Positions 10,579-63,893 of a stretch of DNA of 64,000 bases are shown one piece after another. This stretch comes from Psychrobacillus sp. FSL K6-4046 (GTDB taxonomy: Bacteria; Bacillota; Bacilli; Bacillales_A; Planococcaceae). The notes beneath the pieces were generated by a model, which worked only from the letters and a program-made list of their open reading frames with translations, searched no databases and had not been told where the DNA came from. The stretch is taken from NCBI RefSeq assembly GCF_038624605.1, contig NZ_CP152020.1:2039312-2103311 (forward strand). The letters run 5' to 3'. The stretch's first letter is position 1. Every line of letters begins with the position of its first letter. Both the position numbers and the translations under genes were made by a program.

Positions 10579-10809
10579 GTTGAAAATCCAAACAAATAAA
10601 TAGAAAAATATAGGAAGATTTGATATATTCATTTATAATAGCTGTACTAGTAAATCATTTTCTATGTATCTTTTGTTTATGTAAATTAATCATATGTATT
10701 AATTGTGAAACATACAAGTATTAACAATATTTTTTTTAAAAATGTATAATTTAACTCTATGCAAAATGAAAAACTTAAAGTATATTATTCTATGCAAATA
10801 ATTTTATAA

Positions 10810-10960
10810 GGCAAAGTATTTCTTTGCCGAGGGAAGGCAAATGGTGCGCCACCGGTTCTTGAGCTGGTTCTAGTAGGTTCGATTCCTACCCCGAAATTTT
10901 TTATGCAATTCAAATGAAAAATTTCAGGGGAACTAGAATGACTCTGCTCATTTTCAGTTC
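10810..10960 (+). ncRNA. Highly structured, tRNA-like leader before the GNAT gene
   Basis: From 10823 to 10897 (75 nt) the sequence can draw a tRNA-like cloverleaf: an imperfect acceptor stem (TTT..CG.GGG with CCCCGAAA), a D-like arm GGC-AAATGGTGC-GCC, an anticodon-like arm CCGG-TTCTTGAG-CTGG with an 8-base loop, and a perfect canonical T arm GTAGG-TTCGATT-CCTAC (10873-10889). There is no T at position 8 and no encoded CCA. Competing stems exist. GGCAAAG (10810-10816) pairs perfectly with CTTTGCC (10822-10828), and CCCCGAAATTTTT (10889-10901) pairs with 10917-10930. A third hairpin occupies 10931-10959, just before the ribosome binding site. I match it to no riboswitch class I know. Confidence 0.6.
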
Positions 10961-10978
10961 TGGAGGAGGCGTTTTTTT

Positions 10979-11562: not shown

Positions 11563-12639
11563 TTAGTTTTTATATGTTAGTAGTAGTTCCGTAAATTGCT
11601 CAGGTGTTTTGGAAGAACTCGCCAGACACTGTGCATCAATTATTTTTTCTTTGTTTAATGCTAAAGCTGAAAGAGAATTCATAAATGTCTCAGCGGTGAG
11701 ACCCTCTTCTTCAAGGACAATAGCATAGCCTAATTTTTCAAAGAAGTTTGCATTTAATACTTGGTCTCCCCTGCTGGCGTTCTTGGACAAAGGTATTAAT
11801 AACATAGGTTTTTTTAACTCTAAAAATTCAAAAATGGAGTTAGAGCCAGCTCGGCTTATTACATAGTTTGTGATTTTCAACAAATGGGGTAATTCATCCG
11901 TTACGTATTCAAAGGCTTTATAATTTGGTTTATCTATCAATGAAGGGTCTAGGTTTCCTTTACCACAAAGATGAATAATCTGAAATCGCTTGGTTAAAGT
12001 GTCTATATTATCTTTAATCGCAGCATTAATACTTTTAGAGCCCTGGCTTCCGCCCATAACGATAATTGTTTCTTTAAAAGGACTAAAGCCTGTCAGCTCT
12101 CTTGCAATTTTTTCATCTCCTTGAAACAGATCAGGGCGAATGATTGCTCCTATAGCGGAAGACTTATCCCTTGGAATATACTTTAATGTCTCTTCAAAAA
12201 CCGTAAATATATGTTCTGCAAATGGTGTTGCAATTTTGTTTGCTAAACCAGGTGTGATGTCGGACTCATGTATTACGACTGGAATATTAGAAAGCTTTGC
12301 CGCCACTACAACTGGCACAGAAACAAATCCTCCTTTGGAAAATACAAGCGAAGGCTTTATTTTTCTTAAGGTTCTCATGGCTTGCATTGTTCCGTATAGG
12401 ACTTTAAATGGATCTGAGAAATTTTTAATAGAGAAGTACCTTCTTAACTTACCATTAGAAATAGTGTGATAAGGTAAAGTGGGAAAGCTTTTTTCAATAA
12501 TTGATTTTTCAATTCCATCAGCAGAACCAATATAATGGACTTCATATCCGTTTCTTAATAATTCTGGGATAATGGCTTCATTTAAAGATACATGACCAGC
12601 TGTTCCCCCGCCTGTCAGTACTATTTTGTTATTGTTCAT
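11563..12639 (-). CDS. murG: MurG glycosyltransferase (lipid II synthase), staphylococcal type
   Basis: The 358-residue GT-B enzyme adds GlcNAc from UDP-GlcNAc to lipid I at the inner membrane face, giving lipid II. The N-terminal loop is TGGGTAGHVSLN instead of the more usual TGGGTGGHVYP. The middle contains SKGGFVSVPVVVAA and IHESDITPGLANK, and the nucleotide-binding half contains GGSQGSKSIN and SRAGSNSIFEFL. Along its length it resembles the stand-alone staphylococcal and B. cereus-type MurG, not the dcw-cluster form. It stands alone here. A second murG elsewhere in the genome is possible but not visible. ATG follows TTAGGAGA. Confidence 0.93.
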   Translation of the reverse strand: MNNNKIVLTGGGTAGHVSLNEAIIPELLRNGYEVHYIGSADGIEKSIIEKSFPTLPYHTISNGKLRRYFSIKNFSDPFKVLYGTMQAMRTLRKIKPSLVFSKGGFVSVPVVVAAKLSNIPVVIHESDITPGLANKIATPFAEHIFTVFEETLKYIPRDKSSAIGAIIRPDLFQGDEKIARELTGFSPFKETIIVMGGSQGSKSINAAIKDNIDTLTKRFQIIHLCGKGNLDPSLIDKPNYKAFEYVTDELPHLLKITNYVISRAGSNSIFEFLELKKPMLLIPLSKNASRGDQVLNANFFEKLGYAIVLEEEGLTAETFMNSLSALALNKEKIIDAQCLASSSKTPEQFTELLLTYKN

Positions 12640-22206: not shown

Positions 22207-22395
22207 TTGATTGGAGCGAAGAACGGCGACTCCAGCGGGAACAGCGCGAGCTGAAGACCCTGGACTGAGCGCAGTGAGGGAGTTTCAAGGAGGGAAAACT
22301 AAGGACGTCACATCGTGTGACAACGTTTTCCTGACCAACATCCTGTTGGCCTAAGCCGTGCCCGCGGAAAGCGTCCGTTCGTAGTGGAAATCAAC
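22207..22395 (+). repeat. GC-richer dispersed intergenic repeat, copy C
   Basis: The segment begins TTGATTGGAGCGAAGAACGG and ends GTAGTGGAAATCAA. It is clearly richer in G+C than its neighbourhood and has no ORF. Its two ends match the ends of the core inside repeats A (274-415) and B, while the middle differs. Repeats of this general form, with GAAAGCGTCCG near one end and GGAAATCAA at the tip, recur in many Bacillaceae intergenic regions as I remember them. It directly adjoins the decayed transposase. Confidence 0.65.
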
Positions 22396-63779: not shown

Positions 63780-63893
63780 CTCTTATCAAGAGTAGCTGAG
63801 GGACTGGCCCGTTGAAGCTCGGCAACCATCTATACTAAAAAAGTATAGAAAGGTGCTAAATCCTGCAAAACATTTTGTTTTGGAAGATAAGAG
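63780..63893 (+). promoter_or_regulatory. SAM-I riboswitch (S-box)
   Basis: The sequence carries the S-box core: P1 CTCTTATC (63780-63787) closes with GATAAGAG (63886-63893). It contains AGAGTAGCTGAGGGACTGGCCC, the GAAGCTCGGCAACC segment and AAAGGTGCTAAATCCTGCA. These are the conserved kink-turn, core and J elements of the family. Binding of S-adenosylmethionine stabilises P1, frees the downstream terminator and stops transcription. Confidence 0.95.

Follow-up and report, generated by a model that had tools for sequence, protein, structure and literature searches.

A tRNA-like leader RNA, predicted to switch translation, in front of a GNAT acetyltransferase gene in Psychrobacillus and other Bacilli

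A conserved leader RNA was identified in front of a GNAT acetyltransferase gene of Psychrobacillus sp. FSL K6-4046 (positions are those of the window, the whole stretch of 64,000 nt that was analysed), and its conserved fold is a tRNA-like four-way junction with a 3-bp acceptor, GGG/CCC. The leader probably acts in cis as a translational ON switch, a reading to which a probability of roughly 0.6 is given. The two marks of a riboswitch, a conserved aptamer-like core and two mutually exclusive folds over the expression signals, were both found computationally; the direction of control, the binding of an effector and the translational level are inferred. If true, the leader would represent a class of bacterial leader RNA that is not yet listed. 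Being strictly tied to a single acetyltransferase, which is otherwise conserved but uncharacterised, it would offer a direct handle on the function of that enzyme, whose role the effector may reveal. In addition, it makes testable how a tRNA-like fold in an mRNA aids translation.

The leader core (10830-10930) is near-invariant in relatives. From 10831 onwards the 3-bp acceptor, D-type arm, anticodon-like arm, 4-nt variable loop and T-type arm follow each other (Table 1), hairpin H2 abuts the T-type arm without a gap, and then come switching segment C, hairpin H3 and the Shine-Dalgarno (SD) sequence. The original prediction had drawn a cloverleaf over a 75-nt segment, and its T arm, its D-like arm with GG in the loop and its anticodon-like arm with an 8-base loop are all present. 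Its acceptor stem was right in the GGG/CCC part, which is conserved, while the longer imperfect stem of that drawing is not. The third hairpin, said to end just before the ribosome binding site, does stop directly before the SD in the constrained fold. A putative promoter was read upstream of the leader; its -10 TATATT is kept within the genus, and TATAGT or TATATT stands at the equivalent position in other family genomes. A stronger match to the promoter consensus lies at 10721-10750.

Table 1. Features of the leader region in the window
Feature	Position	Strand	Basis
Putative promoter: -35-like ATGCAA 10759-10764, 16-nt spacer, -10 TATATT 10781-10786	10759..10786	+	sequence reading
5' hairpin GGCAAAG/CTTTGCC	10810..10828	+	GGCAAAG 10810-10816 complementary to 10822-10828; accessory, mainly genus-specific
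Acceptor 5' strand GGG (A)	10831..10833	+	GGG in 167/170 leaders
Junction AA, equivalent of tRNA positions 8-9	10834..10835	+	AA in 170/170 leaders
D-type arm, loop with GG at 10843-10844	10836..10850	+	GGC 169/170; GCC 165/170 or GTC 5/170; TGG 170/170
GCGCCACC, complementary to the extended SD GGAGGCG of family f1 leaders	10846..10853	+	duplex energies; likely SD-blocking OFF strand in this genome
Anticodon-like arm, 8-nt loop in the window, loop not conserved	10851..10868	+	3 pairs with double changes; arm 11-22 nt across 170 leaders
Variable-loop equivalent TCTA	10869..10872	+	TCTA or CCTA in 161/170 leaders
T-type arm GTAGG-TTCGATT-CCTAC	10873..10889	+	TTCGA in 169/170 leaders; 3 stem pairs with double changes
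Acceptor 3' strand CCC (B), for which A and C compete	10890..10892	+	CCC in 166/170 leaders
Hairpin H2 (GAAATTTTTTAT / ATGAAAAATTTC), long, A/U	10893..10925	+	10/12 counted pairs with double changes
Switching segment C	10926..10936	+	complementarity, permutation and folding tests
Hairpin H3 (C:D), D = AGTTCT 10956-10961, adjoining SD	10929..10961	+	constrained fold
Shine-Dalgarno GGAGGAGG	10962..10969	+	sequence reading
GNAT acetyltransferase CDS, GTG start, 181 aa	10979..11524	+	Pfam PF13302 E 9.7e-18; AlphaFold mean pLDDT 90.8

A DNA search of 101 genomes (the own genome and relatives) gave a match at E <=0.1 in 60 and at E <=1e-25 in 32, the latter including all 18 same-genus genomes of this sample; outside the genus only the core aligns. 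Most columns were invariant in 23 distinct cores, and stems as well as loops were near-invariant. With the covariance model R1, for which strong matches (at least 48 bits) stand against a tRNA-level background of at most 36.6 bits, strong matches occurred in 48 genomes of the family (261 searched), in 34 Bacilli genomes from 13 families (398 searched), and in 4 genomes of a phylum sample of 299, all four from Bacilli, the class of the window. Each genome held a single strong match, and the core was present in 19/19 same-genus genomes among those listed (133 non-matching family genomes are not listed by name). A second model (R2), which was built from the R1 matches and is not independent of them, recovered the same 34 of 398 Bacilli genomes. 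A scan of named genomes with the core pattern gave at least 120 stretches; the 80 titles listed were Bacillales, e.g. Psychrobacillus, Priestia, Oceanobacillus, Halobacillus, Neobacillus and Parageobacillus, with one exception titled Bacillota bacterium. An origin as phage remnant was rejected, the core pattern being found in 0 viral contigs. Three genomes of genus g9 (L092-L094) carry divergent copies without the GGG/CCC acceptor, in which 2 of the 3 acceptor pairs are broken and the T and anticodon-like stems are changed; the D-type loop is kept, and the TTCGA T loop is kept in two of the three.

Covariation was counted in an alignment of 100 homologues (96 distinct) to R1, in which 97.9% of the cells were paired. 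Double changes occurred in 16 of 28 pairs (6.9 in shuffles) and the covariation score was 0.176 (0.071 in shuffles, at most 0.042 in slid versions), counts that lean towards the model since the alignment was fitted to the model structure. The pairs with double changes belong to H2 (10), the T stem (3) and the anticodon-like stem (3). No such pair was found in the acceptor and D stem, which are almost invariant, so their support comes from conservation and not from covariation. The unpaired invariant bases would occupy positions of the tertiary core of tRNA, and this is the likely effector site.

The leader does not score as a tRNA. ARAGORN called 0 tRNAs in the whole window, no family of Rfam 15 matched the leader at gathering score, and when the tRNA model RF00005 was run at E up to 10 it gave 18 bits, with a gathering score of 29. 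A tRNA gene has a 7-bp acceptor and a 7-nt anticodon loop; here the conserved acceptor has 3 bp and the length of the anticodon-like arm ranges between 11 and 22 nt. The 75-nt segment alone was no more stable than its shuffles (z 0.44; 134/200 as good), and the whole leader was more stable than its own (z -3.56; 0/200 as good). The decisive support for the element is conservation plus covariation. No description of the leader RNA was found in the open-access literature searched or in Rfam 15, four core strings did not occur in papers of that literature, and no such RNA appears in the available part of a survey of ncRNAs across 50 genomes.

The leader is tied to one gene. Core and T arm were found in 221 of 222 loci scanned (L121 is incomplete at its end), which gave 172 distinct leaders, or 170 for analysis after two incomplete ones were set aside. 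The same GNAT gene, identified by its N-terminal motif, follows in 170/170; the start rule chose an implausible codon in 8 of these, leaving the gene identity unaffected. In 34/34 Bacilli genomes the GNAT protein match starts 30-71 nt after the core match. GNAT orthologues (E <1e-50) were present in 101 of 398 Bacilli genomes with one match each, and in 67 of the 101 no leader was detected, thus the gene predates the leader, or the leader has been lost there. Upstream of 20 of these 67 genes, R1 and R2 run without filters gave nothing convincing.

Two other arrangements were seen before GNAT. In L239 and L240 (genus g14) a T-arm-like remnant, GGGTTTGAATTCC or GGGTTTTAATTCC and then ACGAATTTTAG, precedes the gene; it is scored by neither covariance model and is possibly a decayed or strongly diverged copy. 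In family f16 (L232-L234, L248) the orthologous GNAT gene has a different leader, alike in L232 and L234 and alike in L233 and L248, which is possibly another regulatory RNA. For the neighbourhood, 51 of 100 longer loci have, on the same strand, a gene of the same cluster as an amidohydrolase of L117 (6106-7233 of that locus, uncharacterised, Pfam PF01979), and in 48 of those 51 it ends at most 1.5 kb upstream of the RNA. The corresponding place in the window is taken by a two-component regulator on the opposite strand. It is possible that the amidohydrolase is a functional partner of GNAT.

In most leaders segment C has the sequence G-A-GGG-T-GG, complementary to the 3' strands of the acceptor and the T stem apart from one A that bulges out. 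The number of leaders able to form these pairs declines from 163/169 at the middle acceptor base to 64/169 at the T-stem position farthest from it; T4-C6 pairs in 118/169 and T1-C9 in 64/169, so invasion of the T stem is not universal, and the window's own C reaches only CCC and a single C of the T stem. The original prediction had let the strand after the T arm pair with a stretch reaching 10930, and this competition for the 3' strand is indeed conserved, reaching into the T stem in the majority of leaders. Its competition for the 5' strand was borne out in part: 10810-10816 is complementary to 10822-10828, but this hairpin lies outside the conserved acceptor and is mainly a feature of the genus, thus it is no general part of the switch. 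In the 32 nt before the core, a fold of -6 kcal/mol or lower was obtained for 17 of the 18 leaders of this genus and for 14 of the 152 others.

Partners were also permuted between leaders. In 81 leaders, one per distinct C, the mean C:D energy was -13.05 kcal/mol with the own partner and -10.28 kcal/mol (sd 0.24) with permuted ones, and 0 of 5000 permutations were as good. For C against the T 3' strand plus B the values were -10.91 and -10.47 (1/5000), and for D:SD they were -8.56 and -8.23 (43/5000), the latter test being weak because the SD hardly varies. Tests of single duplexes against shuffles were mostly non-significant (significant at 0.05 for C:D in 49/161 and for D:SD in 16/161), an outcome partly due to the script, which could clip D. 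In many leaders outside family f1, to which the window belongs, D can pair with the SD, e.g. CCCTC against GGAGGG. The f1 set comprised 47 leaders taken by locus number; one of them, L026, is from f29, and the other set may contain f1 species from the collection of named genomes. Within these limits, 37 of the 47 have GGAGGCG or GGGGGCG as their SD, and the mean duplex energy of GCGCCACC with the SD was -9.4 kcal/mol in the f1 set versus -3.9 in 121 others. As judged from these duplex energies and from the paired SD in the OFF fold, GCGCCACC is likely the strand that blocks the SD in the OFF state of the window's genome.

The two states were folded with the cloverleaf forced (ON) or with the T-stem 3' strand forced to pair downstream (OFF), and neither C:D nor SD pairing was imposed. 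OFF was lower than ON in 162 of 168 leaders with a median of 6.9 kcal/mol, by nearest-neighbour energies that ignore tertiary contacts and folding during transcription. Of five SD bases, 1.8 were paired in ON and 4.0 in OFF on average over leaders; for the window, ON came to -39.0 with 0/5 and OFF to -49.7 with 5/5. Seventy of the 168 leaders, picked at random from each set, were refolded with only the linker between C and SD shuffled. In 45 of them the difference in SD exposure between ON and OFF fell from 0.35 to 0.02, and 39 of the 45 exceeded their own shuffles; in the 25 from the f1 set it fell from 0.35 to 0.12, and 22 of the 25 did. The two-state switch with a tRNA mimic that was originally proposed is thus well supported by conservation, covariation and the linker-shuffle control, all of them computational. 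As a separate observation, L082, L184, L185, L212 and similar leaders have a T run after the D:SD hairpin, just ahead of the start codon, and hairpin and T run resemble an intrinsic terminator overlapping the SD.

The following mechanism is proposed. In the ON state the core would form the tRNA-like four-way junction, with its D-type and T-type loops able to meet in an elbow; B would pair with A (GGG), C would be free for D, and the SD would be exposed. In the OFF state C would take B as its partner and, for most species, the T-stem 3' strand as well, by which the tRNA-like fold would be dismantled. Outside family f1 the freed D would then cover the SD; in family f1, including the window, the freed D/anticodon-arm strand GCGCCACC would cover GGAGGCG. 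Since the energies favour OFF, an effector that stabilises the tRNA-like fold, a small ligand or a tRNA-binding protein, would switch GNAT on. A further step is speculative and rather unlikely: that GNAT acts on tRNA, on charged tRNA or on an elbow binder, and that the tRNA mimic built into its mRNA serves as sensor, a second and independent tRNA-fold switch read by the enzyme, by T-arm tRNA-modifying enzymes or by polyamines that stabilise tRNA folds.

There is a minor but real chance that the leader is instead a protein operator, to which GNAT itself or another tRNA-binding protein binds as to a tRNA and so regulates its own mRNA. An element that precedes only this one gene among the loci seen, with near-invariant stems as well as loops and a D/T elbow signature, would fit; GNAT orthologues with no detected leader are common, however (67/101 genomes), and because the intact mimic is the ON state by folding, protein binding would mean positive feedback, except where the protein, once bound, blocks the ribosome. 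That the D:SD hairpin, or the SD helix of the window, acts with a T run as an intrinsic terminator in some lineages is quite improbable. At least five T within 14 nt after GGAGG were counted in 41 of 168 leaders, 15 of 18 same-genus ones among them, but 127 of 168 have no T run and a scan of the + strand found no terminator-like site in the window's leader.

A thermosensor, in which heat melts the OFF fold with no ligand, would agree with the lower energy of OFF in 162/168 leaders; it would need no invariant tRNA-like core, and as the loops are nearly invariant this reading is very unlikely. Hardly credible is an independent 75-nt tRNA-like small RNA cut out by RNase P/Z, and the same holds for a tRNA gene in decay. 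The canonical T arm and the 18 bits of the tRNA model speak for such an origin, but these bits are under the gathering score of 29, only 3 bp of acceptor are conserved, and the element stands before the same gene in 34/34 genomes and is near-invariant. A core kept in this way and tied to a single gene throughout 13 families is not a decaying one, and the tRNA pseudogene offered as the other choice by the original prediction was dropped in the sense of a random relic. Descent from a tRNA gene long ago could still lie behind the leader.

Against these alternatives, the translational ON switch may be compared with known systems. To our knowledge, only yjdF was previously known as a translational switch with a tRNA fold, and the GNAT leader would be the second. 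The E. coli thrS leader carries hairpins that mimic the anticodon arm and are bound by ThrRS, which regulates its own mRNA. Common to both would be tRNA mimicry in an mRNA leader controlling translation; thrS mimics the anticodon arm, whereas in the GNAT leader the anticodon-like loop is variable and the elbow and junction are conserved. T-box riboswitches are leaders of Bacilli whose logic also involves tRNA architecture, and they bind tRNA in trans. Membership in this class was rejected, as no Rfam T-box family matched the leader at gathering score or at E up to 10.

In the available parts of the literature on the yjdF (azaaromatic) riboswitch, a ligand-stabilised tRNA-like fold activates translation, and the RNA is linked almost exclusively to one gene of unknown function (PMC9142559; PMC10987639; PMC4793209); acetyltransferases are mentioned among the genes under its control, and the ligand is bound by an extended purine-rich J1/2 (PMC9142559). 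As far as these descriptions go, yjdF (RF01764) shares with the leader the tRNA-like four-helix fold and the D/T-type loop pair with GG (TGG and TTCGA in Table 1, a sequence feature shared with tRNA too), and, as predicted here, the place in an mRNA leader, a translational ON logic and an SD that is paired in OFF. Even with the threshold relaxed to E 10, RF01764 (cut-off 45 bits) did not match the leader; its best match in the own genome was one of 17.5 bits elsewhere. In place of the extended purine-rich J1/2 described for yjdF the leader has AA, and unlike yjdF it has the canonical T loop TTCGATT, switching by the separate H2, C and D, and GNAT as its gene. Thus, with no match to the family, no ligand-binding J1/2 and different switching parts, the leader is similar to yjdF in its working and is not a member of it.

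The original prediction had pointed to the lysylated tRNA-like RNAs of B. cereus. In the available part of its description, tRNA-Other is a pseudo-tRNA of its own with a Trp anticodon (PMC3399842). Compared by description only, both would be tRNA-like RNAs outside translation in Bacilli; tRNA-Other is standalone, whereas the GNAT element lies within an mRNA leader and has a variable anticodon-like loop, and a link between the two is not supported. The loop sequence varies among the leaders listed, which together with the varying length of the arm argues against decoding or lysylation.

For the GNAT protein, the nearest Foldseek neighbour was SpeG (TM 0.73, 19% identity), with many viral GNATs also near, and these neighbours of the predicted structure seem too generic for naming a substrate. 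Given the SpeG/GNAT-like fold, polyamines or other amines might be candidates, which proves nothing. NCBIfam gave only matches far below cut-off. Identity with B. subtilis ylbP was rejected since, in the available part of the source, ylbP is a 483-bp gene with promoter fragments ending at +43, a misfit. The spermidine riboswitch and a guanidine-IV variant, met in papers that mention acetyltransferases, are other RNAs as far as the parts available describe them.

Further Rfam matches were observed in the window. S414 (Staphylococcus sRNA 414) matched just over cut-off at 11931-12098 (+), inside a murG-like ORF of the other strand (11563-12639), and it was also found near the GNAT gene of L094 (2612-2784 of that locus, 59.6 bits); this family model may be responding to coding sequence. 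Also above cut-off were Bacillaceae-1 RNA (22283-22349, 71.2 bits) and a SAM riboswitch (63780-63893, 96 bits).
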